From: Lachnospiraceae bacterium
GTDB lineage: Bacteria > Bacillota > Clostridia > Lachnospirales > Lachnospiraceae
Reading direction: 5' to 3'
Length of the DNA: 64,000 bases
Assembly: GCA_030524705.1 (NCBI GenBank)
Contig: JAUNGD010000005.1
Span: 35,626 to 99,625 of the forward strand
Below the pieces are notes generated by a model that made no database searches, was not told where the DNA came from, and saw nothing but the letters and a program-made list of their open reading frames with translations. The stretch's first letter is position 1; every line of letters starts with the position of its first letter. Shown here one piece after another: positions 6,610 to 22,443 of the stretch. Position numbers and translations under genes: made by a program.

Positions 6610-6638
6610 TTGACAGATATAGATTAAGCTGGTAGACT
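6610..6638 (+). promoter_or_regulatory. Sigma-A-type promoter for the cobalamin riboswitch transcript
   Basis: A perfect -35 box TTGACA at 6610-6615 and TAGACT at 6633-6638 are separated by 17 bases. Transcription would begin near 6645, immediately before the riboswitch aptamer. Confidence 0.6.
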
Positions 6639-6654
6639 GTTGTTAGTGTGAATA

Positions 6655-6840
6655 TGCCGTATTGAGTGGATTCCTCCGGCTTGCCGGAGTGAATACTAAG
6701 AGGGAATCAGGTGAGAATCCTGAACGATCCGGTCACTGTGAGCAGGGAGCGAGATTTCATGGGCCATTACATATTGTAAAGTGTGAGAAGGCGGAATTGA
6801 ACGATGATCTGTGAGCCAGGAAACCTGCTTAATATTAGAG
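6655..6840 (+). promoter_or_regulatory. Cobalamin (B12) riboswitch
   Basis: The aptamer core is clear: AAGAGGGAATCAGGTG followed by GAATCC, then GGTCACTGTG at about 6731-6740, GGGCCATTAC, GAGAAGGC, and the B12 box GAGCCAGGAAACCTGC at 6813-6828. These appear in the order and spacing expected of an AdoCbl-type riboswitch. A preceding CTCCGG/CCGGAG hairpin at 6674-6689 is a side stem. The nearest downstream gene is malate dehydrogenase at 7192, with a terminator at 7003-7030 between them, so a transcription-attenuation mechanism is plausible. Control of the Hdr/Flx/fumarate reductase operon by this element is an inference from position. Confidence 0.88.
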
Positions 6841-7002
6841 ATGAGCTACCGTGAATAGCGATGAAATCTAAGAAAGCAGCGACAGAGCGCTTGGCTGCTT
6901 TATTCCCGCAAAGTAACAGGTTGAAGTCGGGCTTTTCCGATTTTGGAGGCCGCCGTGAGAGGAAATATCCTTCATAGCGAAGCGGCGGGGGATTTGATTG
7001 AG

Positions 7003-7030
7003 GTTCGCCACGGAGCAGGCGAACATTTTT
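7003..7030 (+). terminator. Rho-independent terminator between riboswitch and mdh (possible expression platform)
   Basis: GTTCGCC at 7003-7009 pairs perfectly with GGCGAAC at 7018-7024, followed by ATTTTT. It lies about 170 bases beyond the B12 box. The intervening stretch can form other hairpins (AAAGCAGC/GCTGCTTT at 6873-6901; a CCGCCG/CGGCGG stem around 6951-6988) that could act as alternative pairings. Confidence 0.7.
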
Positions 7031-7191: not shown

Positions 7192-8139
7192 ATGAGCAGT
7201 AAAATCACGATTATTGGAGCAGGAAGCGTAGGGTCAACCATCGCGTATACTTTGTCAGGAATGGATGTCACATCGGAGATCGTAATGATTGACATTAATA
7301 AAGAGAAGGTAGCAGGCGAAGTTATGGATATTGAACAGGGAACCTGCTTCCGCAATCCAATTTCCATCAAGGCAGGAGAATATGAAGACGCCAAGGGTTC
7401 TGATATTGTCATTATCACATCAGGAATCGCCCGCAAGCCAGGACAGACGAGAATCGAACTGACTCAGACAAATGTAAATATTTTAAAGAGCATTACGCCG
7501 GAAATCGTAAAGGCGGCGCCGGATGCACTGTATATCATCGTAAGCAATCCGGTGGACATTATGACGTATGTATTTGCTAAAATATCAGGTGTTCCGGAGA
7601 ACCATGTCATCGGTTCCGGTACGATCCTGGATACAGCCCGGCTGCGTTTCGGTCTTTCTGATCACTTTAAGGTGGCTCAGAAAAATATCCACGCTTATGT
7701 ATTTGGAGAGCATGGAGATACCTCGTTTATTCCGTGGACAGGCGCTTACATTTCCGGAGCCAGTGTAGACGAGTACTATGAGCTGATGAAGAGCACCGGA
7801 AAAGACGTGGATGAGCTGGACAAAGAGGCAATGCTGAAATACGTGCAGAAGTCAGGCGGCCAGATCATTGCAAACAAGGGCGCTACCTTCTATGCTGTTG
7901 CCAATGCAGTCTGTAAACTCTGTGAGATCGTTCTCGCTGCATCTGATTCCATCGCAACCGTGTCTTCCATGATGCATGGAGAGTACGGCATTGAAGACGT
8001 ATGTATCAGTACGCTGACCCTTGTGGGACCGAACGGTATTCAGGGCAAGGTACCGATGCGTATGAACAAAGAGGAGATTGCTAAGCTTCAGGCCAGTGCG
8101 AACGCCCTGAAGGCAGTCATCGCTCAGATCGAATTATAA
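7192..8139 (+). CDS. mdh: Malate dehydrogenase of the lactate/malate dehydrogenase family
   Basis: A 315-residue NAD-dependent 2-hydroxyacid dehydrogenase with GAGSVGSTIAY for NAD binding, catalytic GEHGDTS (His174) and TILDTARLR (Asp147, Arg150). The specificity loop reads IARKPGQTR: Arg81 stands where lactate dehydrogenases have Gln, and arginine there selects dicarboxylates, so I call it malate dehydrogenase, although automated annotation could call it L-lactate dehydrogenase. It interconverts oxaloacetate and malate in the cytoplasm. It starts with ATG after GAAAGGAG and lies upstream of fumarate-producing and fumarate-reducing genes, which supports the malate assignment. It is separated from hdrB by 143 bases containing only a weak hairpin. 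Confidence 0.85.
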   Translation: MSSKITIIGAGSVGSTIAYTLSGMDVTSEIVMIDINKEKVAGEVMDIEQGTCFRNPISIKAGEYEDAKGSDIVIITSGIARKPGQTRIELTQTNVNILKSITPEIVKAAPDALYIIVSNPVDIMTYVFAKISGVPENHVIGSGTILDTARLRFGLSDHFKVAQKNIHAYVFGEHGDTSFIPWTGAYISGASVDEYYELMKSTGKDVDELDKEAMLKYVQKSGGQIIANKGATFYAVANAVCKLCEIVLAASDSIATVSSMMHGEYGIEDVCISTLTLVGPNGIQGKVPMRMNKEEIAKLQASANALKAVIAQIEL

Positions 8140-8282
8140 TTTATCCCAGGAGCACTTAGCCGTGCAGAAGCTGAAAAACAGGCCCGGAGATTGACTGCGG
8201 GCTTGGTGTTTTGGCTTTTTGCACGTAATTAAAAAAAGAAAATGGAAGATTGAAAAATCAGACCAGGAAAGGAAACGGGACT

Positions 8283-9080
8283 ATGAAGTACAGTTATTAT
8301 CCAGGATGCACGCTGAGAACGAAGGCAAAAGATCTGGATGCCTATGCCAGAGCCTGCGCGTCAGCCCTGGGCTTCGAGCTGGAAGAAATAGAAGAGTGGC
8401 AGTGCTGCGGCGGAGTTTACCCGCTGGGGACAGACGAGATTGCCACAAAGCTTTCTTCCGTCCGGGCGCTGAACGAGGCGAAGGAAAAGGGACAGGAGCT
8501 GGTGACCATATGCTCCGGCTGTCATCACGTGATCAAGCGTGTGAATGACGACATGAAAAACGTGGATGATATTCGAACCAGAGCCAACAATTATATGCAG
8601 CTTGACGAGCCGTATGCCGGAGAGACCAGTGTGCTGCATTATCTGGAGGTCCTGCGGGACAGAGTCGGGTTCGATACACTGAAGGAAAAGGTGGTCAATC
8701 CGCTGACCGGAAAAAAGATCGGCGCTTATTACGGATGTCTTCTGCTGAGACCTGGCAAAATTCTGCAGTTTGACAATCCAGAGAACCCGAAGATCATGGA
8801 AGACTTTATCCGGGCGATCGGAGCTGAGCCGGTGATTTATCCGTACCGGAATGAGTGCTGCGGCGGCTACATATCTCTGAAGGAGAAGGAGCTGTCGGCG
8901 GGCATGTGCGGCAAGATCATGGAGAGCGCGGAGGGCTTCGGCGCAGATATGCTGATTACAGCCTGTCCGCTTTGCATGTATAATCTGAAGAAAAACGGCA
9001 GCAGCGAGCTTCCGGTGTACTACTTTACGGAGCTGCTGGCAGAAGCCCTGGGCGTGAAGGAGGAGGTGGATCAGGCATGA
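8283..9080 (+). CDS. hdrB: Heterodisulfide reductase-like subunit B (HdrB), two CCG domains
   Basis: This 265-residue protein has two full cysteine-rich CCG domains: Cys9, Cys41-Cys42, Cys77 and Cys80, then Cys152, Cys192-Cys193, Cys228 and Cys231. In methanogen HdrB each such set holds a noncubane 4Fe-4S cluster that cleaves a heterodisulfide. Nothing in this genome region suggests coenzymes M and B, so its acceptor must differ; transfer toward the fumarate reductase encoded downstream is my inference. No membrane anchor is present. The ATG at 8283 follows GGAAACGGGA. Its stop overlaps the hdrC start (ATGA), indicating translational coupling. Confidence 0.92.
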   Translation: MKYSYYPGCTLRTKAKDLDAYARACASALGFELEEIEEWQCCGGVYPLGTDEIATKLSSVRALNEAKEKGQELVTICSGCHHVIKRVNDDMKNVDDIRTRANNYMQLDEPYAGETSVLHYLEVLRDRVGFDTLKEKVVNPLTGKKIGAYYGCLLLRPGKILQFDNPENPKIMEDFIRAIGAEPVIYPYRNECCGGYISLKEKELSAGMCGKIMESAEGFGADMLITACPLCMYNLKKNGSSELPVYYFTELLAEALGVKEEVDQA

Positions 9081-9466
9081 GTACTGCAAAAAAACAGGCC
9101 GAGATGATCAAAGAGATCAGCGGCGTAAACCCTCTGAAATGTATGAAGTGCGGGAAATGCTCTGCAACCTGTCCTTCCTACAACGAAATGGACATCAAGC
9201 CGCACCAGTTTGTATCCTATGTCATAAACGAAGATATTGATGCGCTGGTCAATTCAAAATCACTGTGGAAATGCCTTTCCTGCTTTGCATGTGTGGAGCG
9301 CTGCCCCAGAGACGTAAAGCCGGGCAAGCTGATCGACGCGGCAAGGCAGCTTGTGGTCCGTCAGAAGGGACAGAATTATCTGACGGCAGATGAGATCCCC
9401 GAGCTGCTGGATCCGGAGCTTCCGCAGCAGCTGCTGGTTAGCGCACTCAGAAGATACAGGAGGTGA
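9077..9466 (+). CDS. hdrC: Heterodisulfide reductase-like subunit C (HdrC), dicluster ferredoxin
   Basis: A 129-residue protein with two 4Fe-4S motifs, CMKCGKCSATCPS near residues 22-34 and CLSCFACVERCPR near residues 66-78, as in HdrC, which wires HdrA to HdrB. The length fits cytoplasmic HdrC. It overlaps hdrB by four bases and is followed at once by hdrA, the tightest possible hdrBCA arrangement, so the three should form a complex. Confidence 0.92.
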   Translation: MSTAKKQAEMIKEISGVNPLKCMKCGKCSATCPSYNEMDIKPHQFVSYVINEDIDALVNSKSLWKCLSCFACVERCPRDVKPGKLIDAARQLVVRQKGQNYLTADEIPELLDPELPQQLLVSALRRYRR

Positions 9467-9471
9467 GACAG

Positions 9472-11460
9472 GTGCAGAGAATTGGAGTGTTTGTCTGTCA
9501 CTGCGGAAGTAATATCGCAGCAACAGTTGACGTAAAAAAAGTAGTGGAAATGGTTCAGATGGAGCCGGGTGTGGTTCATGCAGAGGATTACCAGTACATG
9601 TGTTCCGAGGCCGGACAGGCTAAGATCGCAGCGGCTATCCAGGAAAAGGGACTGACAGGGATCGTGGTTTGCTCCTGTTCCCCGAGAATGCATGAGGCGA
9701 CCTTCCGCAAGGCTGCTGAGAGAGCCGGCCTGAATCCATATATGGTAGAGATCGCAAATATCCGTGAGCACTGCTCCTGGATTCACAAGAATATCGAGGA
9801 GGCCACGGAAAAGGCCGTGATCCTCGCCCGGGCAGCCATTGCCAAGGTAAATCTCAATACATCCCTGAAGCCGGGCGAGAGCCGCGTAACGAAGCGGGCC
9901 CTGGTAATCGGAGGCGGTATCGCGGGTATCCAGACCGCTTTGGACATTGCAGATGCCGGATACGAGGTGGATATTGTGGAGAAAACCCCGAGTATCGGCG
10001 GAAGAATGTCACAGCTTGACAAGACTTTCCCGACTCTGGACTGTTCCGCATGTATCCTGACTCCGAAGATGGTGGAAGCGGCGGCTCACGAAAAGATCAA
10101 GATCTATACATACAGTGAAGTAGAAAAGGTATCGGGCTTTGTGGGTGACTTTACCGTGGACATCCGCAAAAAAGCGAGAAGCGTAGATATGGATAAGTGT
10201 ACGGGCTGCGGCGTCTGCCAGGAGAAGTGTCCGTCCAAGAAGGCTCCCAGCGAGTTCAACCGGGGGCTGAATACGAGAAGCGCCATCTACACCCCCTTTG
10301 CTCAGGCCATTCCGAATGTTCCGGTCATCGACCGGGAGAACTGCATCAAGTTCAAGACCGGAAAATGCGGCGTCTGCTCAAAGGTATGTCAGGCCGGCGC
10401 GATTGATTATGATCAGCAGGACGAGATCGTAACAGAAAAGTACGGAGCAATCGTGGTGGCTACCGGTTTTGATACCATCAAGCTGGACAACTACGACGAA
10501 TATGCATACAGCCAGAGCAAGGACGTCATCACCTCTCTGGAGCTGGAGCGTATCATGAATGCGGCAGGCCCGACAAAGGGTCATCTGGAGCGTCTTTCCG
10601 ACGGAAAAGCACCGAAGGAAATGGTATTTATCCAGTGTGTGGGAAGCCGTTGTGCGGACAACAGAGGAAAGAGCTACTGCTCAAAGATCTGCTGTATGTA
10701 TACGGCTAAGCATGCCATGCTGATCCGGGATAAATATCCGGATGTGAATGTTACGGTATTCTACATTGATGTGCGTACACCGGGTAAGAACTTTGACGAG
10801 TTCTACAGAAGAGCGGTGGAACAGTACGGCGTGAATTATATAAAAGGCCAGGTGGGCAAGGTTATCCCGCAGCCGAACGGAAAGCTGCTGGTACAGGGAG
10901 CCGACCTTCTGGACAACAAGCAGATATTAAAGGAAGCAGATATGGTGGTGCTGGCTACGGCGATCGAGCCGAATCCTGACGTCCGCAAGATTGCGACAAT
11001 GCTGACGGCAAGTATTGATACCAATAACTTCCTGACAGAGGCGCATGCAAAGCTTCGTCCGGTAGAATCCCCCACAGCCGGTATTTTCCTGTCCGGCGTA
11101 TGCCAGGGACCGAAGGATATTCCTGAGACGGTGGCCCAGGCCGGAGCTGCGGCAGTAAAGGCAATCGGACTGCTGGCTAAGGATAAGCTGCTGACGAATC
11201 CGTGTACGGCTCAGGCAGATGAACTGATGTGTAATGGATGCTCTACCTGTGCAAATGTCTGCCCGTACGGAGCGATCACTTATGAGACACGTCTCGTAAA
11301 CGACCACGGAATCCGGGAAGACCGCAGAATTGCAGTTGTAAACAGCGCACTGTGTCAAGGCTGCGGCGCTTGTACGGTGGCTTGTCCGTCCGGTGCAATG
11401 GACCTGCAGGGCTTCTCCAACAGACAGATAATCGCGGAGGTGGATGCAATATGTCGATAG
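9472..11460 (+). CDS. hdrA: Heterodisulfide reductase-like subunit A (HdrA), bifurcating flavoprotein
   Basis: A 662-residue protein, full length for HdrA. In order: an N-terminal domain starting VFVCHCGSN; a thioredoxin-reductase-like FAD domain with VIGGGIAGIQTA near residue 145; an inserted ferredoxin domain (CTGCGVCQEKC and CGVCSKVCQ); and a C-terminal dicluster ferredoxin (CNGCSTCANVCPYG, CQGCGACTVACPSG). In characterised HdrABC-MvhD complexes this FAD splits electron pairs between a high-potential and a low-potential acceptor, the latter being ferredoxin. I chose GTG 9472, eight bases after AGGAGG; a GTG at 9463 overlaps the ribosome site. The last 10 bases overlap flxD. Confidence 0.92.
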   Translation: MQRIGVFVCHCGSNIAATVDVKKVVEMVQMEPGVVHAEDYQYMCSEAGQAKIAAAIQEKGLTGIVVCSCSPRMHEATFRKAAERAGLNPYMVEIANIREHCSWIHKNIEEATEKAVILARAAIAKVNLNTSLKPGESRVTKRALVIGGGIAGIQTALDIADAGYEVDIVEKTPSIGGRMSQLDKTFPTLDCSACILTPKMVEAAAHEKIKIYTYSEVEKVSGFVGDFTVDIRKKARSVDMDKCTGCGVCQEKCPSKKAPSEFNRGLNTRSAIYTPFAQAIPNVPVIDRENCIKFKTGKCGVCSKVCQAGAIDYDQQDEIVTEKYGAIVVATGFDTIKLDNYDEYAYSQSKDVITSLELERIMNAAGPTKGHLERLSDGKAPKEMVFIQCVGSRCADNRGKSYCSKICCMYTAKHAMLIRDKYPDVNVTVFYIDVRTPGKNFDEFYRRAVEQYGVNYIKGQVGKVIPQPNGKLLVQGADLLDNKQILKEADMVVLATAIEPNPDVRKIATMLTASIDTNNFLTEAHAKLRPVESPTAGIFLSGVCQGPKDIPETVAQAGAAAVKAIGLLAKDKLLTNPCTAQADELMCNGCSTCANVCPYGAITYETRLVNDHGIREDRRIAVVNSALCQGCGACTVACPSGAMDLQGFSNRQIIAEVDAICR

Positions 11461-11894
11461 AAGCAAAGAACGAATTCAAACCGAAGATCGTAGCGTTTTG
11501 CTGCAACTGGTGCAGCTACGCCGGCGCTGACCTGGCAGGAAGCAGCCGCCTTACCTATCCGGCGGATGTAAAGATCATCCGCGTGCCGTGCTCCTGCCGT
11601 GTAAACCCGATGTTTATTTTGAGAGCCTTCGAAAAGGGCGCAGACGGAGTGATCCTCTGCGGCTGCCACCCGGGAGACTGCCATTACAGCACCGGCAACT
11701 ATTATGCGAGAAGGCGAATGACACTGTTGTTTTCCATGCTGGATTACCTCGGCGTGGAGAATGGACGTACCCGCGTAGAATGGGTATCCGCTGCAGAGGG
11801 CGTGAAATTCTCCCAGACCATGAATGAGTTTGTGGAAAAGATCTATTCCCTGGGCGAGAACGTGAGATTGGGGGATTTGCGATGCAGGAATTAA
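11451..11894 (+). CDS. flxD: MvhD/FlxD-like 2Fe-2S electron-transfer subunit
   Basis: A 147-residue MvhD-family protein with the cysteine pattern CCNWCSYAGAD, VPCSCR and CGCHPGDCHY, which binds a 2Fe-2S cluster. In methanogens MvhD links the hydrogenase MvhAG to HdrA; in FlxABCD-HdrABC systems FlxD plays that role for the NADH-oxidising FlxABC. No hydrogenase large or small subunit is present here and flxA-like genes follow, so the Flx role fits. The ATG at 11451 lies inside hdrA (10-base overlap), and the gene overlaps the next one by 13 bases. Confidence 0.88.
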   Translation: MSIEAKNEFKPKIVAFCCNWCSYAGADLAGSSRLTYPADVKIIRVPCSCRVNPMFILRAFEKGADGVILCGCHPGDCHYSTGNYYARRRMTLLFSMLDYLGVENGRTRVEWVSAAEGVKFSQTMNEFVEKIYSLGENVRLGDLRCRN

Positions 11895-12856
11895 TCAATC
11901 GGATAAAAGAACTGCTGGCAGACGGAACGGTGGCAAGAGCCCTTGGCTGGAGGGCCGGAGACCTCCCCTACAACCCGGAGCCGGCTTACTTTGAAACAGC
12001 AGAGTCTTTGCAGGACTTCGTATACAACGGATTCTGCGGAGCAAATTTAAGTAAATATATGATCGAGGCTTCAAAGCTGGAGGGCAGGACCCTGGTCTGT
12101 CTGAAGCCCTGCGATACATACAGCTTCAACCAGCTTCTGAAGGAGCATCGCGTCGACCGGGAAAAGGCGTATATCATCGGCGTGGGCTGCAAGGGCAAGC
12201 TGGACATCGAAAAGATCCGGCAGCAGGGAATCAAGGGCATCCAGAGCATCAGCGGAGCGGAGCTGACGGATGAAGGTGAGACCCTGACGATTCAGACCAT
12301 TTACGGCGAGAAGACCTGCGCTTACAAGGACGCCATGCTGGAGCGGTGCCACGTATGCAAGGGAAAAGAGCACAAGATATACGATGAGCTGATCGGCGAA
12401 TCAAAGGATACGAAGGATGCCGAGCGCTTTGCGGAGGTGGAGCGCATTGAGGCGATGACGCCGGAAGAAAAGTTTGCGTTTTTCCGGAGCGAGCTCAGCA
12501 AATGCATCCGCTGCAACGCCTGCCGCAACGTGTGTCCGGCCTGCAGCTGCCGGAAGTGCGTATTTGACAGTGTGAAATTTGACAGCTCCCAGAAAGCGAA
12601 CGTGGATTCCTTCGAAGAGAAGATGTTCCATGTGATCCGGGCCTTCCATGTGGCAGGAAGATGTACGGACTGCGGAGAGTGCAGCCGCGTATGTCCGCAG
12701 GGGATTCCGCTGCACCTGTTCAACCGCAAGTTCATAAAGGACATTGACGAGCTGTACGGAGAATATCAGGCCGGAGAGGATGCGGAGGCCATTGCTCCGC
12801 TTACAAGCTTTACATTTGACGACGCAGAACCGAGCATTGTAGGAAAGAGAGGGTAA
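11882..12856 (+). CDS. Flx-type 4Fe-4S protein (FlxB/FlxC-like, first of two)
   Basis: A 324-residue protein with an N-terminal domain without known motif, a CHVCKGKEH segment near residue 156, and a C-terminal dicluster ferredoxin: CIRCNACRNVCPACSCRKC and CTDCGECSRVCPQG. This resembles the iron-sulfur proteins of FlxABCD gene sets and the beta-type F420 dehydrogenase-like proteins. It likely carries electrons between the NAD(P)H-oxidising flavoprotein at 13915 and FlxD/HdrA. It overlaps flxD by 13 bases. I cannot decide whether it corresponds to FlxB or FlxC, so no symbol is given. Confidence 0.75.
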   Translation: MQELINRIKELLADGTVARALGWRAGDLPYNPEPAYFETAESLQDFVYNGFCGANLSKYMIEASKLEGRTLVCLKPCDTYSFNQLLKEHRVDREKAYIIGVGCKGKLDIEKIRQQGIKGIQSISGAELTDEGETLTIQTIYGEKTCAYKDAMLERCHVCKGKEHKIYDELIGESKDTKDAERFAEVERIEAMTPEEKFAFFRSELSKCIRCNACRNVCPACSCRKCVFDSVKFDSSQKANVDSFEEKMFHVIRAFHVAGRCTDCGECSRVCPQGIPLHLFNRKFIKDIDELYGEYQAGEDAEAIAPLTSFTFDDAEPSIVGKRG

Positions 12857-12859
12857 ACT

Positions 12860-13915
12860 ATGTATAAGATTGCAAGAGAAAATCTGCCCGCACTATTCCG
12901 ACGGATCGCAGCGGATCAGGAATTATATCTTCCCGTAAAGGTCAGCGGTCAGGTGAACTTCGGTGCCTGGACAGAGGACGCGCAGGTAGATCTGGACACA
13001 TTAAAGTCCGTAAAATCCCCGAAGGATGCATTTTTCCCTCAGAGCGAGAACCTCTACACAGTAGTAAAGGAAGGGAAAAAGCTCAGCGTTCATCCTGAAA
13101 AATTAAAGGACCAGAAATTCGTAGTCTTCGGTATGAAGGCCTGCGACGTGAAGGGGCTGGAGGTGCTGGATAGGGTATTCCTGTCCGACCCGGTGGACAC
13201 CTTCTATGCGGCAAGAAGAGAGCATGGGACGGTGGTAGCCATGGCCTGTCATGAGCCGGAGGAATCCTGCTTCTGTAAGGTGTTTGGCGTGGACTGCGCC
13301 GAGCCTTCTGCAGATGTGGCTGTCTGGATGGTGGAGGACGTGCTGTACTGGAAGGCGCTCACCGCAAAGGGCGAGGAGCTGACAAAGACGGCAGAAGAAC
13401 TCCTGGAGGATGCGGACGCACAGGAGGAAGCAAAGCTGGAGACAGAAAAGGCTGCGATCCGGGAGATCGTAGAGAAGCTTCCGTATTCCAATCTCTCCCT
13501 GGAGGGCTGGAACGGGGATGCGCTTTCCGAAAAATTCGATTCCCCGCTTTGGGAGACGCTGTACAAGCCCTGCCTTGCCTGCGGAACGTGTACCTTCGTC
13601 TGCCCGACCTGCCAGTGCTACGATATTAAAGACTATGATACGGGACACGGCGTACAGCGGTACCGCTGCTGGGATTCCTGCATGTATTCTGATTTTACGA
13701 TGATGGCCCACGGCAACAACCGTACGAGCCAGATGCAGCGTTTCCGCCAGAGATTTATGCACAAGCTGGTCTACTTCCCGGCGAACAACGACGGCATGTA
13801 TTCCTGCGTCGGCTGCGGCCGCTGCGTGGAGAAATGTCCGGCAGCTTTAAATATAGTAAAGGTAATCAAGAAATTTGCAGAGGATTCTGCGGATAAAGCA
13901 GGAGGTGAGCAGTGA
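12860..13915 (+). CDS. Flx-type 4Fe-4S protein, AsrA-like (second of two)
   Basis: A 351-residue protein related to the AsrA subunit of anaerobic sulfite reductase. The N-terminal part has FGMKACDVKGLEVLD near residue 90, and the C-terminus has two 4Fe-4S motifs, CLACGTCTFVCPTCQCYD and CVGCGRCVEKCPA. There is no siroheme subunit (AsrC) nearby, so sulfite reduction is unlikely; in Flx gene sets such a protein accompanies the NADH-oxidising FlxA. An acidic Glu/Ala/Lys-rich stretch near residues 175-195 may be a linker. The stop codon overlaps the ATG of the next gene. Confidence 0.78.
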   Translation: MYKIARENLPALFRRIAADQELYLPVKVSGQVNFGAWTEDAQVDLDTLKSVKSPKDAFFPQSENLYTVVKEGKKLSVHPEKLKDQKFVVFGMKACDVKGLEVLDRVFLSDPVDTFYAARREHGTVVAMACHEPEESCFCKVFGVDCAEPSADVAVWMVEDVLYWKALTAKGEELTKTAEELLEDADAQEEAKLETEKAAIREIVEKLPYSNLSLEGWNGDALSEKFDSPLWETLYKPCLACGTCTFVCPTCQCYDIKDYDTGHGVQRYRCWDSCMYSDFTMMAHGNNRTSQMQRFRQRFMHKLVYFPANNDGMYSCVGCGRCVEKCPAALNIVKVIKKFAEDSADKAGGEQ

Positions 13916-14796
13916 TGGGTGAGCAGAAGCAGGAAGCGGCAGTACATGAGTGCACCTGCCATACAAACTACACACTGGATACTTTGATTCCGAAGATCGG
14001 CGTTATCACGGATATTCGCCAGGAGACGCCGGACGTAAAGACCTTCCGCGTGAATGCGCCGGAGGGCGGAAAGCTCTTTGAGCATATGCCGGGGCAGTGC
14101 GCCATGGTCTGTGCGCCGGGAGTCAGCGAGGGTATGTTTTCCATCACCTCTTCTCCCACAAATAAGGAATATCAGGAATTCAGTATCAAAAAGTGCGGAA
14201 CACTGACGGATTATCTTCACAGCCTTCAGGTGGGAGATGAAATCACAGTTCGGGGGCCCTACGGAAATCATTTTCCGGTGGAAACCGAATTAAAGGGCAA
14301 GAATCTGCTCTTCATCGCCGGCGGTATCGGCCTTGCGCCGCTGCGCTCCGTGATCAACTACGTGCTGGACAACAGGGAGAATTACGGGACTGTGGACATT
14401 CTGTACGGCTCCCGTTCCGCGGACGACCTGGTGCAGCTTAAGGAAATACAGGAAGTATGGATGAAGGCAGAGGGCGTCAATGTGTATCTGACCATTGACC
14501 GCGAGCAGGAAGGATGGGATGGCCATGTGGGCTTTGTTCCGTCTTACTTAAAAGAGATCGGCTTTACAACGGATAAGGTGGCGCTGGTATGCGGACCGCC
14601 TATCATGATCAAGTTTGTGCTGGCAGGACTTCAGGAGCTGGGCTTCACGAGGGAGCAGGTATATACCACCCTGGAGCTGCGTATGAAGTGCGGAATCGGA
14701 AAATGCGGCCGCTGCAATATCGGTTCAAAGTACGTCTGCAAGGACGGCCCGGTATTCCGGTTTGATGAGATCGACGAGTTGCCCAACGAGTATTAG
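13915..14796 (+). CDS. flxA: FlxA/AsrB-like FAD- and NAD(P)H-binding oxidoreductase subunit
   Basis: A 293-residue ferredoxin-NADP reductase-fold protein: FAD-domain motif FSITSSPTN, RGPYGNHF, then the NAD(P) domain GGIGLAPLRSV and CGPPIMIKFV, and a C-terminal 2Fe-2S site KCGIGKCGRC with a downstream VCKDGPV. AsrB, PyrK and FlxA share this layout. Next to HdrABC and FlxD and without a hydrogenase, it is the probable entry point for NADH electrons. NADH over NADPH is inferred from the Flx family and not proven by the motif. The ATG at 13915 follows AGGAGGTGAG and overlaps the stop of the previous gene. Confidence 0.85.
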   Translation: MGEQKQEAAVHECTCHTNYTLDTLIPKIGVITDIRQETPDVKTFRVNAPEGGKLFEHMPGQCAMVCAPGVSEGMFSITSSPTNKEYQEFSIKKCGTLTDYLHSLQVGDEITVRGPYGNHFPVETELKGKNLLFIAGGIGLAPLRSVINYVLDNRENYGTVDILYGSRSADDLVQLKEIQEVWMKAEGVNVYLTIDREQEGWDGHVGFVPSYLKEIGFTTDKVALVCGPPIMIKFVLAGLQELGFTREQVYTTLELRMKCGIGKCGRCNIGSKYVCKDGPVFRFDEIDELPNEY

Positions 14797-14813
14797 GAAA
14801 GGACGGACAGATT

Positions 14814-15488
14814 ATGGAACAGATGGTAAATGTATATTTTTTCGGTAAAAAATACAGCGTACCGGCAGAGCTGACGATCATGACAGCCATGGAGTACGCC
14901 GGATATACCCTGAAAAGAGGGTGCGGATGCCGCCACGGCTTCTGCGGCGCCTGTGCAACGATTTACAGAATCAAGGGAAAGAATGAACTGAAGACCTGTC
15001 TGGCCTGTCAGACTCAGGTGCAGGAGGGAATGTATGTGGCAAGCATCCCGTTCTTCCCGACGGACAAGAGAACCTACGATATTAATGAGATTAAGCCGAA
15101 CCAGCAGATTATGATGGAGCTGTATCCTGAGATCTACAGCTGTATCGGCTGCAATGCCTGCACAAAGGCATGTACCCAGGATCTGAACGTTATGCAGTAC
15201 ATTGCTTACGCGCAGAGAGGCGAGCTGGAAAAATGCGCGGAGGAATCCTTCGACTGTATCAGCTGCGGCTGCTGCAGCGTGAGATGCCCGGCGGAGATTT
15301 CTCATCCGATGGTGGGTCTTCTGGCAAGACGTCTGACCGGCAAGTACATCGCGCCGGAGTCAGAGCACTTGAACAAGCGCGTAGAAGAGATCCATGCAGG
15401 CGCATACGATGAGCTGATCGAGAACATCATGCAGAAGCCGATCACGGAGATGCAGGAACTTTACAACAACAGAGAGATTGAGAAATAA
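14814..15488 (+). CDS. frdB: Fumarate reductase iron-sulfur subunit (soluble, atypical FrdB)
   Basis: A 224-residue protein with an N-terminal 2Fe-2S plant-type domain (Cys37, 39, 44, 47, 62, 65; GCGCRHGFCGAC) and a C-terminal dicluster domain with two regular CxxCxxCxxxC motifs (Cys110-120 and Cys148-158, with an extra Cys153). Classical FrdB/SdhB carries 2Fe-2S, 4Fe-4S and 3Fe-4S centres; here the last site has four standard cysteines and looks like a second 4Fe-4S, as in HdrC and GlpC proteins. It should pass electrons to FrdA encoded 12 bases downstream. There is no CCG domain as in methanogen TfrB, but a separate CCG protein (HdrB) is in the same operon. Confidence 0.82.
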   Translation: MEQMVNVYFFGKKYSVPAELTIMTAMEYAGYTLKRGCGCRHGFCGACATIYRIKGKNELKTCLACQTQVQEGMYVASIPFFPTDKRTYDINEIKPNQQIMMELYPEIYSCIGCNACTKACTQDLNVMQYIAYAQRGELEKCAEESFDCISCGCCSVRCPAEISHPMVGLLARRLTGKYIAPESEHLNKRVEEIHAGAYDELIENIMQKPITEMQELYNNREIEK

Positions 15489-15500
15489 GGAGGGTTATTC

Positions 15501-17102
15501 ATGTTTACACCAGAAATGCTTGAGTCTGTAAAGAAGGTAGAAGCTACCAGAGCAGAACGTATGAAGACAGAGCCAAGACGTATGACAGCGGACGAAAAGG
15601 ATGCCCTTCTGAAAGCATATCATCCCGATTACAGAGAGGATGGCTTCGCGGAGATCAAGATCGGACCGAATAAGGGACAGAAGGTACCCAGCGAGCTGGG
15701 ACATCTCCTCCACTCCAATAGCCGCGTCTTGAATGCGGGCATCGACCTGAACAAGGTGGATTATGATGTGGACGTTCTGGTTATCGGCGGCGGCGGCGCA
15801 GGTGCATCCGCAGCCATTGAGGCGCATGAGGCCGGAGCAAATGTCATGATCGTGACGAAGCTTCGTATCGGCGACGCCAACACCATGATGGCAGAGGGCG
15901 GTATCCAGGCGGCCGACAAGGAAAATGATTCTCCGGTACAGCATTACCTTGACGCCTTCGGCGGCGGACATTTTGCTGCAAGACCGGAGCTGCTGAAGAG
16001 ACTCGTTATGGAGGCCCCGGATGCGATTCAGTGGCTGAACAAGCTGGGCGTTATGTTTGATAAGGATGAAGACGGAAGAATGGTGACCACCCACGGCGGC
16101 GGAACCTCCAGAAAGAGAATGCATGCCTGCAAGGACTACTCCGGTGCGGAGATCATGCGTACACTCCGGGACGAGGTGTTGAACCGTCAGATTCCGGTGG
16201 TGGAATTTACCTCCGCGGTGGAGCTGATCAAAGACGACAAGGGCCAGGTGGCAGGAGCCGTTCTTCTGAACATGGAGACGGATGACTACCTTGTGGCAAG
16301 AGCAAAGACCGTTATTATCGCAACGGGCGGAGCGGGACGTCTGCACTATCAGAATTTCCCCACCTCCAACCATTACGGTGCAACGGCAGACGGACTCGTT
16401 CTCGGATACCGTGCAGGAGCGCCGCTCCTTTATCAGGATACGATTCAGTACCATCCGACGGGCGTTGCGTACCCGGCACAGATCTTCGGCGCGCTGGTTA
16501 CAGAGAAGGTACGTTCCCTGGGCGCGATGCTGGTTAACGCAGAGGGTGAAGCATTCATGCATCCGCTGGAGACCCGTGACGTATCCGCTGCCTCCATCAT
16601 CCGCGAGTGTACGGACAGAGGCAAGGGCGTGACGACACCGCTGGGCAGCGGCGTATGGCTGGATACTCCGATGATCGAGCTGCTGGGCGGCGAGGGCACC
16701 ATCGAAAAGCGTATCCCGGCAATGCTGCGTATGTATCTGAACTACGACATTGATATGAGAAAGGTGCCGATCCTCGTATATCCGACGCTGCATTACCAGA
16801 ACGGCGGCCTGGAGATCGGCGGCGACGGCTTCACAAAGGCCATTGATAATCTGCTGGTGGCAGGAGAGGCCGTAGGAGGCATCCACGGAAGAAACCGTCT
16901 GATGGGCAACTCACTGCTGGATATTATCGTATTCGGCCGCAACGCAGGCAAGGCTGCGGCAGCAAAGGCGAAGACAGTAGAGCTGGGAGCGCCGTCACTG
17001 AAGCACGTGGAGGATTATGCGAAGGAGCTGGAGAACGCAGGAATCGAATCCGACGACGTTTCTCCGCTGCTGCTTCCGAAGTATGCAAGACATGAGAGAT
17101 AG
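15501..17102 (+). CDS. frdA: Fumarate reductase flavoprotein subunit (soluble type)
   Basis: A 533-residue FrdA/SdhA/NadB-family flavoprotein. About 90 residues precede the FAD Rossmann motif GGGGAGASAA, an extension classical FrdA lacks. Further motifs: TMMAEGGIQAA, HGGGTSRKRMH, QYHPTGVAYP, HYQNGGLEIG, and GGIHGRNRLMGNSLLD with the catalytic region. The His that attaches FAD covalently in membrane FrdA (S-H-T) is Asn127 here (A-N-T), so the flavin is probably non-covalent. The usual C-terminal helical domain is largely missing. No FrdC/FrdD membrane anchors occur, so it is cytosolic. L-aspartate oxidase is an alternative reading but the frdB-fumarase context argues for fumarate reduction. 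Confidence 0.85.
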   Translation: MFTPEMLESVKKVEATRAERMKTEPRRMTADEKDALLKAYHPDYREDGFAEIKIGPNKGQKVPSELGHLLHSNSRVLNAGIDLNKVDYDVDVLVIGGGGAGASAAIEAHEAGANVMIVTKLRIGDANTMMAEGGIQAADKENDSPVQHYLDAFGGGHFAARPELLKRLVMEAPDAIQWLNKLGVMFDKDEDGRMVTTHGGGTSRKRMHACKDYSGAEIMRTLRDEVLNRQIPVVEFTSAVELIKDDKGQVAGAVLLNMETDDYLVARAKTVIIATGGAGRLHYQNFPTSNHYGATADGLVLGYRAGAPLLYQDTIQYHPTGVAYPAQIFGALVTEKVRSLGAMLVNAEGEAFMHPLETRDVSAASIIRECTDRGKGVTTPLGSGVWLDTPMIELLGGEGTIEKRIPAMLRMYLNYDIDMRKVPILVYPTLHYQNGGLEIGGDGFTKAIDNLLVAGEAVGGIHGRNRLMGNSLLDIIVFGRNAGKAAAAKAKTVELGAPSLKHVEDYAKELENAGIESDDVSPLLLPKYARHER

Positions 17103-17117
17103 AGAGGAGTGACTGCT

Positions 17118-17960
17118 GTGCGTGAAATAAATGTGAGCCAGCTTACAGATGTAATCGAAAAGCTCTGTATAGAGGCTAATGAGCACCTTCCGGAGGACGT
17201 AAAGTGTGCGATTAAGAACTGCCGTGCCTGTGAGGACGGTGAGATCGCCAAGGGCGTGCTGGACAATATCATCGAAAATTTTGACATCGCAGATAATGAA
17301 TGTGTACCGATCTGTCAGGATACCGGTATGGCCTGCGTATTTCTGGAGATCGGACAGGACGTTCACCTGGTAGGAGGAAACCTTGCTGAGGCAGTGGACG
17401 AGGGTGTCCGCAGGGGATACGACAAGGGATACCTGAGAAAATCCGTAGTAAAGGACCCGGTTCGCCGGGGCAATACGGGAGACAACACACCGGCAATGCT
17501 CTATACCGAGATCGTTCCGGGAGAAAACATCAAGGTAACAGTGGGTCCCAAGGGCTTTGGAAGCGAGAACATGAGCATGATCCGCATGTTCAAGCCCTCC
17601 GCGGGGCTTCAGGGCATCAAGGATTTCATTCTTGAGGTAGTGGAGACCGCCGGCCCGAATCCGTGTCCGCCCATGGTGGTGGGCGTAGGCATCGGCGGCA
17701 CCTTTGACAAGGCGGCGCTGCTGGCAAAGAAGGCTCTGATGCGCCCGATTGATTCCTCCAACCCGGATCCGTTCTATGCAGACCTGGAAAAGGAAATGCT
17801 GGAGAAGATCAATCAGCTCGGCATCGGCCCCCAGGGCTTTGGCGGCAGGACTACAGCCATCGGCCTGAACATTGAGACACTGCCTACTCACATTGCAGGA
17901 ATGCCCTGTGCGGTCAATATCAACTGCCATGTGACACGCCACAAAACGGAGGTGATCTAG
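17118..17960 (+). CDS. fumA: Class I fumarate hydratase, alpha subunit
   Basis: A 280-residue Fe-S hydrolyase alpha subunit of the fumarase/L-tartrate dehydratase family. Cluster cysteines lie in VPICQDTGM and GPNPCPPM, with CRACEDG near residue 36. GTG at 17118 is chosen because GAGAGGAG lies eight bases upstream; an earlier in-frame GTG at 17109 overlaps that site. The beta subunit begins two bases after the stop. Fumarase and tartrate dehydratase are hard to separate by sequence; the neighbours mdh and frdBA make fumarase the likely role, dehydrating malate to fumarate. Confidence 0.88.
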   Translation: MREINVSQLTDVIEKLCIEANEHLPEDVKCAIKNCRACEDGEIAKGVLDNIIENFDIADNECVPICQDTGMACVFLEIGQDVHLVGGNLAEAVDEGVRRGYDKGYLRKSVVKDPVRRGNTGDNTPAMLYTEIVPGENIKVTVGPKGFGSENMSMIRMFKPSAGLQGIKDFILEVVETAGPNPCPPMVVGVGIGGTFDKAALLAKKALMRPIDSSNPDPFYADLEKEMLEKINQLGIGPQGFGGRTTAIGLNIETLPTHIAGMPCAVNINCHVTRHKTEVI

Positions 17961-17961
17961 T

Positions 17962-18519
17962 ATGGAAAAACACATTACGCTGCCCCTCACAGAAGAGCTG
18001 GCAAAGACATTACATGCAGGTGATTCCGTATACCTCACCGGCACGATCTACACCTCCCGGGATGCGGGACACAAGAGAATGTGCGAAGCACTGGCTAGAG
18101 GCGAGGAGCTTCCCTTTGACCCGACGGATGCGACTATTTACTATGTAGGCCCCACACCGGCGAAGCCGGGAGCCGTCATCGGTTCTGCAGGTCCCACCAC
18201 CAGCGGACGTATGGATGCGTATGCGCCGACTATGATGTCTGTGGGAGCCAGAGGCATGATCGGCAAGGGAGCCCGTCTGCCGGAGGTCGTGGAGGCGATG
18301 AAGAAATACAGCGGCGTTTACTTTGGAGCCATCGGAGGCGCCGGAGCGCTTCTGGCAAAATGCATCAAGAGCGCAGAGCTGATCGCATATGAGGATTTGG
18401 GAGCAGAGGCTCTTCGGAAGCTTTACGTAGAGGATATGCCGCTGGTGGTAATCATCGACAGCGAGGGCAACAACCTCTATGAGATGGGACGGCAGGATTA
18501 CCTGAAAAACCGTCAGTAA
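17962..18519 (+). CDS. fumB: Class I fumarate hydratase, beta subunit
   Basis: A 185-residue beta subunit with family motifs GTIYTSRDAGHKRM near the N-terminus, GPTTSGRMD in the middle and GAIGGAGALLAKCI near residue 130. It pairs with the alpha subunit encoded two bases upstream; in many bacteria the two are fused in one protein. It is the last gene of the mdh-hdr-flx-frd-fum run, and a strong terminator follows 40 bases later. Confidence 0.9.
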   Translation: MEKHITLPLTEELAKTLHAGDSVYLTGTIYTSRDAGHKRMCEALARGEELPFDPTDATIYYVGPTPAKPGAVIGSAGPTTSGRMDAYAPTMMSVGARGMIGKGARLPEVVEAMKKYSGVYFGAIGGAGALLAKCIKSAELIAYEDLGAEALRKLYVEDMPLVVIIDSEGNNLYEMGRQDYLKNRQ

Positions 18520-18558
18520 AAAGGCATTAAAAAAAGCCCAGGAAAACGGGCAGAAGGG

Positions 18559-18600
18559 ACAGTGACATTCGCAGAACGCGGGTGTCGCTGTTCTTTTTTC
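18559..18600 (+). terminator. Terminator of the mdh-hdr-flx-frd-fum operon
   Basis: ACAGTGACA at 18559-18567 pairs with TGTCGCTGT at 18583-18591 (one wobble), with further pairing in the loop, followed by TTCTTTTTTC. Confidence 0.85.
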
Positions 18601-18715
18601 TGCCTGCTATTTTATGATAGAAGTTGCGGTTAGAGAAGACCTTTGATAAAATTAGAGAAAGACGGAGATTCCGTATCCACGGTCTATAGAAGAAAATAAG
18701 GTATAAAAGGCTTAT

Positions 18716-20893: not shown

Positions 20894-20913
20894 TAAAAAT
20901 GAGAGAAATTTCA

Positions 20914-22443
20914 ATGGAGCGGGTGAATGAGACCCGGGAAAAGATTCTGGAGATTATCAAAAGTCCATCCCTGACCCATGAGCAGAAGGTGACAAATCTG
21001 GCAGGCCAGGCGGATTCCCTTATGGAGGTTCTGGATTTGCCGGAGGGTCTGGATGAGCTGCTGAATGCTCCGGGCGAAGCACAATGTATCTGCGACCTTT
21101 CCGAGGGGCACGCACCCATGCGCCCGCGGTATATTGTTCCAGATTACGAAAAATTTATGAAGGAGGGGAGCTGCTTTCTGCAGCTTGCCCCTCCCACTGA
21201 TTTATATGAAGCGCTGGACCATCTGCTGATCCTTTACAAGCATGTACCCAGCGTTACAAATTATCCCGTTTTTGTGGGACATCTTGACCGGCTTCTGGAG
21301 CCGTTTATTGATACGGTGGAGGAGGCCCAGGCCAAAAAGCTTCTAAAAATGTTCATGACGCATATTGACCGGACCGTTTTGGATTCCTTTTCCCATGCGA
21401 ATATCGGCCCGGCGCCGACGAAGGCCGGAAGGCTGCTGCTGGAGGTGGAGGCTGAGCTGGAGAATGCCGTTCCGAACCTGACGCTGAAATACGAAGAGGG
21501 CGTGACGGACGATGCATTCATGCTGAAGGCGATTGACTGTGCGCTGCACAGCGCGAAGCCAAGCTTTGCCAACCACGCAATGTTCCGCAGCGAGCTGACG
21601 GAGGACTATGTGATCGCAAGCTGCTACAACGGCTTGCCGCTGGGAGGCGGCTCTTATACGCTCTGCCGTCTGATCCTGGGCAATATCGCAAAGCGCTCCT
21701 CTGGTATTCAGGATTTTGAGGAGAATCAGCTTCCTTACGTCATGGATATTATGGCCCGCTATATGGATGAGCGGATCCGTTTTGAAGTAGAAGAAAGCGG
21801 ATTTTTTGAGAACAATTTCCTGGCAAAGGAGGGCCTGATCCACAGAGACCGGTTTACCGCAATGTTCGGGCTGGTGGGTCTTGCGGACTGCGTCAATCTC
21901 CTTCTTGAAAAAGAGGGTAAGAGCGGACGCTTCGGCCACGACGAAAATGCCAACGATCTCGGAGTGGAGATCATGGAGATCATTCAGAAATTTAATGATG
22001 CACACGTCAATCCATACTGTGAGGTGACCGGAGGCCATTTCCTTCTGCACGCCCAGGTGGGCCTGGCGGAGGATCAGAATGTGACGCCGGGAACGCGTAT
22101 CCCTATTGGAGAGGAGCCGGAGGAGCTGATCGACCAGCTTCTGGTGCTCAGCCGCTTCCACAAATATTTCCCCTCCGGGACAGGCGATATTTTCTCCATC
22201 GACCTGACGGTACACAAAAATCCAGAGTACGTTCTGGATATTATAAAGGGTGCTTTCAAGAAAGACCTGCGGTATCTGTCCTTCTATTCCAGCGACAGCG
22301 ATGTGATCCGGGTGACCGGATATCTGGTGAAACGCTCCGAGATGGAGAAGCTGGATCAAGGGCTGGCGGTGCTGCAGGATACGACGGCCTTGGGACTCGG
22401 CGCGTCGAAGAACGGCCATATTCTGGAAAGAAAGGTACGCTGA
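20914..22443 (+). CDS. yjjI: YjjI-family glycyl radical enzyme (DUF3029), function unknown
   Basis: A protein of about 509 residues of the YjjI glycyl radical family. A candidate active-site cysteine sits in ASCYNGLPLGGGSYTL, and the C-terminal glycyl radical site is in VIRVTGYLVKRSE. GEEPEELIDQLL and a conserved TGTRIP-like loop lie between. The activase YjjW is encoded next, overlapping by one base. The start at 20914 has a GAGAG ribosome site; an ATG at 20899, six bases after the previous stop, has none. In Escherichia coli yjjI-yjjW also sit beside deoCABD, so the link to nucleoside breakdown is conserved across phyla. Its reaction is not established; the radical makes it strictly oxygen-sensitive. 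Confidence 0.88.
   Translation: MERVNETREKILEIIKSPSLTHEQKVTNLAGQADSLMEVLDLPEGLDELLNAPGEAQCICDLSEGHAPMRPRYIVPDYEKFMKEGSCFLQLAPPTDLYEALDHLLILYKHVPSVTNYPVFVGHLDRLLEPFIDTVEEAQAKKLLKMFMTHIDRTVLDSFSHANIGPAPTKAGRLLLEVEAELENAVPNLTLKYEEGVTDDAFMLKAIDCALHSAKPSFANHAMFRSELTEDYVIASCYNGLPLGGGSYTLCRLILGNIAKRSSGIQDFEENQLPYVMDIMARYMDERIRFEVEESGFFENNFLAKEGLIHRDRFTAMFGLVGLADCVNLLLEKEGKSGRFGHDENANDLGVEIMEIIQKFNDAHVNPYCEVTGGHFLLHAQVGLAEDQNVTPGTRIPIGEEPEELIDQLLVLSRFHKYFPSGTGDIFSIDLTVHKNPEYVLDIIKGAFKKDLRYLSFYSSDSDVIRVTGYLVKRSEMEKLDQGLAVLQDTTALGLGASKNGHILERKVR

Follow-up and report, generated by a model that had tools for sequence, protein, structure and literature searches.

A clostridial operon for a probable Hdr-Flx-fed fumarate reductase with possible energy conservation via ferredoxin, and a cobalamin riboswitch in its leader

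Here, we describe a twelve-gene operon in a stretch of 64,000 nucleotides from a Lachnospiraceae bacterium (assembly GCA_030524705.1, contig JAUNGD010000005.1, positions 35,626 to 99,625), in the following called the window. The operon joins a set of Hdr and Flx subunits to FrdB- and FrdA-like proteins and probably gives succinate via a cytoplasmic fumarate reductase. This enzyme would receive its electrons from an Hdr-Flx complex that oxidises NAD(P)H, and energy may be saved in this process as reduced ferredoxin. On balance we lean towards a single soluble Hdr-Flx-FrdBA assembly, which reduces fumarate with electron bifurcation to ferredoxin. The observations concern the genes and their linkage, the conserved cofactor and active-site residues, and the gene content of the hosts; from these we infer complex formation, the path from HdrB to FrdB, bifurcation, the electron donor and the direction of flow. 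Gene order and content recur in relatives far above chance. The nearest relatives, among the matches listed in a scan of GTDB contigs, are metagenome-assembled genomes from animal guts.

The operon occupies positions 7192-18519 of the window. Its twelve reading frames are all open and lie on the + strand:

7192-8139, + strand: malate dehydrogenase (mdh), of the lactate dehydrogenase-like group (family scans; Arg81 at the specificity site)
8283-9080, + strand: HdrB, similar to SdhE as well, with both non-cubane cluster (CCG) motifs complete (family scans; motif cysteines)
9077-9466, + strand: HdrC with two [4Fe-4S] motifs (family scans; cysteine conservation)
9463-11460, + strand: HdrA with a flavin adenine dinucleotide (FAD) domain (HdrA2 profile 1-640, 793 bits; alignment with 5odc_A)
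11451-11894, + strand: MvhD/FlxD (PF02662, 184 bits; HdrA2 profile 641-773)
11882-12856, + strand: FlxC-type 4Fe-4S protein (Fer4 families, weak FrhB_FdhB_C)
12860-13915, + strand: FlxB-type 4Fe-4S protein, ShyB/HydB/AsrA-like (family scans)
13912-14796, + strand: FlxA, a HydG/AsrB-like protein that binds FAD and NAD(P)H and carries an iron-sulfur domain (family scans)
14814-15488, + strand: FrdB-like protein, divergent, with a [2Fe-2S] domain and two [4Fe-4S] motifs (family scans)
15501-17102, + strand: FrdA/TfrA-like flavoprotein (family scans, residue alignment)
17109-17960, + strand: fumarase alpha part, class I, fumA (PF05681, 389 bits)
17962-18519, + strand: fumarase beta part, fumB (PF05683, 196 bits)
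18555-18602, + strand: intrinsic terminator closing the operon (-27.1 kcal/mol, z-score -6.5, 0 of 200 shuffles equally low; stem, then TCTTTTTT)

An earlier reading of this DNA, the original prediction, had listed twelve same-strand genes, and open reading frames and family scans agree with it on place, strand and names. It had also called the genes uninterrupted and often overlapping. The tight spacing is indeed found throughout, as adjacent genes either overlap or are at most about 20 bases apart, with the sole exception of 143 bases between the end of mdh (8139) and the ATG of hdrB (8283), where there is a weaker hairpin (-17.7 kcal/mol, z-score -2.8). The one closing terminator it had named corresponds to the strong hairpin at 18555-18602; this site is absent from the list of a pattern scan for terminators, though its folding statistics are strong.

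The linkage of the Hdr-Flx genes to frdBA is close to fixed. FrdA orthologues (E <= 1e-60 in order and genus, E <= 1e-100 in the phylum; the window's genome is included in every count) occur in 24 of 295 order genomes, 14 of 47 genus genomes and 39 of 398 phylum genomes. HdrA orthologues (E <= 1e-60) were found in 25 of the 295 order genomes, and both proteins in 22, which is 22 of the 24 genomes with FrdA and 22 of the 25 with HdrA; the order searches for the two proteins took no more than four candidates from each genome into account. FrdA without HdrA was seen in G078 and G146 only, whose contigs stop inside the block (genomes 85% and 68% complete, respectively). HdrA without FrdA is represented by a contig-end fragment in G086 (71% identity) and by distant proteins in G172 and G185 (43 and 47%). 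The original prediction had proposed to look for co-occurrence of hdrABC-flx with frdAB, and had named homologous clusters that regularly lack frdAB as an outcome that would count against it. The two orthologues do occur together, in near-fixed linkage within the order, and such clusters were not found in the 295-genome sample.

Gene order was compared at 103 loci, 23 from the order sample and 80 from the GTDB scan (the best 80 of at least 589 FrdA relatives); 102 of them are distinct, L030 and L127 being the same. At 73 loci (17 order, 56 GTDB scan) all nine genes of the block hdrB-hdrC-hdrA-mvhD-flxC-flxB-flxA-frdB-frdA are present in this order on the same strand, and at 27 (3 order, 24 GTDB scan) the block is truncated at a contig end. 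The latter include L043, classed as "other" by the script and counted as contig-cut because its HdrA was found at the very end of its contig. The block is rearranged yet adjacent at two loci (L040 and L042, with hdrBCA, mvhD and flxC inverted) and split at one (L048). A quick tree was built from 59 FrdA sequences. On it, an HdrFlx label, given to every order locus except L048 with contig-cut loci included, changes 3 times, compared to 18.8 times in shuffles, and none of the 500 shuffles gave so low a number. The window's FrdA falls into a group of 28 rows with support 100, of which 23 carry the label and 5 do not.

All seven subunits of the FlxABCD-HdrABC type are present and linked, and the FAD domain of HdrA as well as the iron-sulfur motifs are kept. 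The ten cluster-motif cysteines of HdrB and the eight cysteines of HdrC are each conserved in 20 of 20 aligned sequences, the window included. The MvhD part of HdrA2 is missing from HdrA and is encoded by the next gene. Its residues 5-663 align with the crystallised HdrA (5odc_A, 692 bits), and Lys416 is aligned to Lys409 of the 5odc chain, a position near the flavin. The name FlxC is taken from gene order.

The fumarate reductase half is of the TfrA type. The best NCBIfam match of FrdA is TfrA (337 bits, under the cut-off of 718), and the SdhABE-type flavoprotein model gives 219 bits; L-aspartate oxidase was rejected as an assignment, with 257 bits at best against 337 for TfrA and with mdh and fumAB in the same operon. 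Across the 21 aligned sequences H318, T334, E335, R359 and H431 never vary, nor does R466 in the 20 rows that extend to this position; we take these to be the fumarate or substrate residues, which TfrA-type flavoproteins share. Position 127 is Asn in 21 of 21 sequences and is aligned with a His of E. coli SdhA that presumably links the flavin, so that the covalent histidyl-FAD of complex II is not to be expected here. A family scan (E 0.001) gave no match in FrdA to the C-terminal domain of complex II flavoproteins, only FAD_binding_2 and weaker Rossmann-type matches. The protein that the original prediction labelled FrdB is strongly divergent. Its 13 cysteines are kept in 24 of 24 sequences, the window included, and it reaches only 26 bits with SdhB/FrdB models, compared to 32.5 with TfrB and 39 with RsxC/RnfC. 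A structure prediction of FrdB (mean predicted local distance difference test score 60, predicted template modelling score 0.37) was not used as evidence.

The TfrB profile is matched piecewise and weakly throughout, at 19-87 by FrdB (32.5 bits), at 119-220 by HdrC (28.5 bits) and at 415-487 by HdrB (40.0 bits). There is no TfrB-type fusion of an FrdB part and a CCG part in one chain; the operon has the three genes frdB, hdrC and hdrB. Because the TfrB profile is covered in parts and HdrB is SdhE-like, the operon resembles a thiol:fumarate reductase divided over several genes, with HdrA and Flx supplying electrons at the HdrB end.

The following course of events is proposed. The products of mdh and fumAB would convert oxaloacetate via malate to fumarate. 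FlxA would accept a hydride from NADH (or NADPH), and the electrons would pass by way of FlxB, FlxC and FlxD and reach the FAD in HdrA, where they would be split. One branch would reduce ferredoxin. The other would run via HdrC, the two HdrB clusters and FrdB to the FAD of FrdA, where fumarate would be reduced to succinate; HdrC, HdrB and FrdB would here act as the separated parts of the methanogen TfrB fusion. Reduced ferredoxin might then go to Rnf or to other sinks. The potential of NADH is -320 mV. That of fumarate is given as +33 mV in the available excerpt of PMC5861303. With this span, ferredoxin reduction driven by NADH and fumarate should be energetically easy.

The gene content of the hosts was screened in 37 operon-carrying genomes and 14 control genomes. 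Sdh_cyt (PF01127) occurs in none of the 37 hosts (control: 7 of 14; the FrdC and FrdD families were not searched genome-wide), and there is no cytochrome-b-type membrane anchor within the operon. DsrC was above the cut-off in 0 of 37 hosts, with one sub-threshold match containing stops (G269); in the control it was found in 1 of 14, E. coli only. The original prediction had noted the lack of both DsrC and a membrane anchor, and the screen is in good agreement with this. For menB, 0 of 37 hosts were above the cut-off, three including the window's genome had sub-threshold matches, and 7 of 14 control genomes were positive; the screen did not extend to menaquinone synthesis via futalosine. rnfC was above the cut-off in 25 hosts, with two copies in the window's genome. 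If the proposal is true, Clostridia without menB above the cut-off or Sdh_cyt, as in these 37 hosts, reduce fumarate in the cytoplasm and use ferredoxin to conserve the energy released.

A plain NAD(P)H:fumarate reductase, in which electrons pass from Flx-Hdr to FrdBA and ferredoxin is not reduced, appears unlikely. The transfer from NADH to fumarate is strongly downhill unaided, and FrdBA adjoins other redox proteins elsewhere in the phylum. A direct route needs no HdrA, however, and HdrA is kept at full length including the lysine aligned with Lys409 of 5odc. It is quite unlikely, too, that HdrB works on a small or protein disulfide and that thiols bridge both halves, as in the methanogen thiol:fumarate reductase. 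The complete set of HdrB cluster cysteines and the weak TfrB matches would suit such a link, as would four loci outside the order (L223, L225, L229 and L245) with hdrC-hdrB-frdB-frdA and no hdrA in the stretch, an arrangement which may represent a natural split form of thiol:fumarate reductase. Against it, the operon holds no candidate for a disulfide carrier, and DsrC did not reach the cut-off in any host.

These four loci belong to a sample of 35 other-phylum loci from 34 of the 38 other FrdA genomes, where HdrB was sought by tblastn in the fetched stretch. HdrB occurs together with Flx at one locus (L239), HdrA with HdrB at 11, and HdrB with HdrC alone at 4. At four of the 11 (L228, L230, L235 and L236) the stretch stops at or shortly after mvhD, so Flx may follow. 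In 19 of the 35, no HdrB neighbour of FrdBA was found by tblastn within the stretch (the rest of these genomes was not searched for Hdr); four of the 19 (L231, L232, L243 and L247) have less than 3.2 kilobases (kb) upstream. As the neighbours differ across the phylum, FrdBA looks like a module with varying partners. L216 (5280-18273, turned) resembles a reverse tricarboxylic acid cycle module: besides hdrCBA, mvhD and frdBA, it encodes a 2-oxoacid:ferredoxin oxidoreductase and a protein of 1070 residues in which two parts are HdrA-like. Close to FrdBA at L237 are RnfC-like iron-sulfur proteins and a gene for succinyl-CoA ligase. An NrfH-like cytochrome in L241 (13148-13567, turned) and a formate-dehydrogenase-gamma-like protein in L242 (11162-12151, turned) suggest membrane-fed versions of FrdBA. 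A second FrdA of the family was found in G431 (L238, 14320-15957), with no frdB within the stretch.

There is only a slight chance that Frd is merely co-regulated with Flx-Hdr and fed by another donor: the 19 loci without an HdrB neighbour, four of them with a short upstream part, point that way, whereas the near-fixed gene order across several families and the co-occurrence of FrdA and HdrA orthologues argue against it. Reverse operation, be it ferredoxin oxidation (confurcation) or succinate oxidation, is very improbable. Hdr enzymes can be reversible, but FrdA has Asn at the flavin-linking position in all 21 sequences, E. coli FrdA without that His is reported to lose succinate oxidation and to keep fumarate reduction, and mdh and fum share the operon. 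It is even less probable that HdrB is an anchor like SdhE, the CCG subunit of methylmenaquinol:fumarate reductase, and that FrdBA-HdrB draws on quinol. HdrB does score slightly higher with the SdhE model (142.5 bits) than with the HdrB model (137.0 bits), but both values lie far under the curated cut-offs (500 and 345), hdrC, hdrA and flx stand in the same block, and menB was at best sub-threshold in the hosts, the futalosine route aside.

Several points weigh against bifurcation in an Hdr-Flx-FrdBA assembly. The variety of FrdBA partners weakens the claim that Hdr is the only donor, yet it fits FrdB as the entry point of electrons. G130, an in-order genome, has its HdrA on a different contig. 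rnfC is under the cut-off in 12 of 37 hosts. FlxC and FlxB match TfrB as well, weakly (22 and 18 bits), and the split-TfrB reading therefore leans on gene order and CCG motifs. Because HdrB retains a complete disulfide-reductase-type site, a disulfide could be the real acceptor. Searches of the open-licence PMC literature gave no biochemical test of the proposal, and in tubeworm symbionts, which have a similar cluster, expression of tfrAB is unlike that of the rest according to the available part of PMC11636981. Taken together, the bifurcating fumarate reductase of the original prediction is backed in part, by the Flx-Hdr set, its linkage and co-occurrence with FrdA, the fumarate residues and the host content; its exclusivity is not, given the 19 other-phylum loci. 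The near-fixed synteny offers cultured targets, namely records named Blautia glucerasea, Blautia schinkii and [Clostridium] asparagiforme.

The outer genes of the operon are less constant. The mdh product scores above two L-lactate dehydrogenase cut-offs of NCBIfam, which does not favour the label mdh of the original prediction. At all 58 homologous loci compared, which give 56 distinct sequences, the residue at the specificity position (81) is Arg. Arg at this position marks malate dehydrogenase and, because it is found throughout, we keep this assignment; lactate dehydrogenase was rejected. mdh lies upstream of hdrB at 3 of 23 order loci and 40 of 80 GTDB-scan loci (contig-cut loci counted), and the first operon genes detected 3' of frdA encode fumarase at 3 of 17 order loci and 43 of 63 GTDB-scan loci with more than 3.5 kb downstream. 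Since they stand beside the core at only part of the loci, mdh and fumarase form a variable part of the operon. Further downstream, the window carries a gene for a YjjI-like glycyl radical enzyme (20899-22443) after a gene for a PnrA-like (Bmp) binding protein.

Upstream of mdh we found three leader elements that the earlier account names nowhere:

6610-6638, + strand: promoter-like site, TTGACA, 17 bases, TAGACT, with TG (consensus match only; 15 such sites in the region versus 11.5 +- 3.5 in shuffles)
6647-6846, + strand: cobalamin riboswitch aptamer RF00174 (96.2 bits, gathering threshold 31.5)
7003-7024, + strand: terminator-like hairpin in the interval between riboswitch and mdh, a possible expression platform (10 such sites in the region versus 11.4 in shuffles)

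The fold of the leader has a z-score of -1.6, with 13 of 200 shuffles equally low, and is no proof of a switch mechanism. The same operon is preceded by RF00174 in genome G340 (locus L181, 1194-1395, 87.7 bits), with a promoter-like site at the matching relative place; a counterpart of the terminator-like hairpin was not found in that leader. These two are the only ones with a riboswitch among eight genus genomes in which mdh adjoins hdrB; it was not found in the other six, of which one (L191) was examined with a motif scan alone. In 23 other genomes of the order, no RF00174 match is beside the operon; in G110, G209, G078 and G146 the operon contig starts near or inside the block and leaves the leader out of view. 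A B12-box scan of the 103 loci with one mismatch allowed gave a single match, far downstream in L131, and an Rfam scan of nine loci gave the riboswitch in L181 only. A widely conserved riboswitch ahead of the operon was thus not found. In another relative, a glycine riboswitch lies immediately 3' of the same operon (L187, 13364-13456).

The window's genome has nine cobalamin riboswitches. The first genes behind those scanned of the other eight include hemA and genes for parts of B12/siderophore- and nickel/cobalt-type importers, for a protein with a Big_2 domain and for a monomeric [FeFe] hydrogenase. The open reading frame of the latter (L249, 13-1732, contig C116; TIGR04105, 613.7 bits, cut-off 450) starts 27 bases past the aptamer. 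Neither this hydrogenase nor mdh was found behind 20 further riboswitch-like sites from the genus, although contig ends truncate several of these stretches. Methylmalonyl-CoA mutase had no match in the window's genome (88% complete), nor in 34 of the 37 hosts, and is present in G012, G066 and G130. Conversion of succinate to propionate via this enzyme was accordingly rejected for the window's genome, and the usual link between B12 and succinate does not explain the riboswitch. In the portion of PMC11575231 at hand, riboswitches are not near genes of the propionate pathway. As a tentative idea, possible rather than probable, the bifurcating fumarate reductase operon of this lineage could be under control of the cobalamin riboswitch, so that B12 shortage leads to ferredoxin-yielding succinate formation. 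The riboswitch-linked [FeFe] hydrogenase would then serve this B12 response as another electron sink, perhaps replacing corrinoid-dependent acetogenesis. If this is true, the riboswitch would tie the fermentation product to the supply of vitamin B12.

The link between fumarate reduction and ferredoxin via Flx-Hdr is already published by 2019-2020 for another bacterium; new here are the distribution, the split-TfrB reading and the cobalamin riboswitch ahead of the operon, common to one other species. PMC7282089 (2020), as far as its accessible text goes, cites a 2019 preprint that proposed a ferredoxin-linked fumarate reductase for Pseudoclostridium thermosuccinogenes. The succinate operon of this organism is alike by gene content, with fumarase, Flx-Hdr and fumarate reductase genes in one operon, and rises about 4-fold at low CO2; neither mdh nor a riboswitch is named in that part of the text (PMC7282089). 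The excerpts of PMC9044749 and PMC12174285 hold nothing further on the link between Flx-Hdr and fumarate reductase. For tubeworm symbionts, direct electron transfer from Flx-Hdr to a Tfr-type fumarate reductase was proposed, with flxABCD-hdrABC and tfrAB in one cluster; in contrast to the operon described here, this cluster is from Gammaproteobacteria, serves a carbon-fixing reverse tricarboxylic acid cycle and has korABCD interspersed (PMC6315080 and PMC11636981, both in excerpt). MetFV-HdrABC-MvhD of Moorella likewise joins HdrABC-MvhD to a reductase of a non-disulfide substrate, in this case with methylene-tetrahydrofolate as acceptor (PMC5861303, in excerpt).

Three further systems are similar in part. 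FlxABCD-HdrABC of Desulfovibrio vulgaris has the entire set for electron input and bifurcation and is linked to DsrC, whereas here FrdBA follows and DsrC is not above the cut-off in the 37 hosts. The SdhABE 8-methylmenaquinol:fumarate reductase shares the FrdA-type flavoprotein and a CCG-type SdhE resembling HdrB, but has a quinol donor and is associated with the membrane, whereas here HdrA, HdrC and Flx are linked. Methanogen TfrAB, finally, has the FrdA-type subunit together with FrdB, HdrC-like and HdrB-like parts, which are fused in TfrB and use a thiol donor there and are encoded by three genes here.

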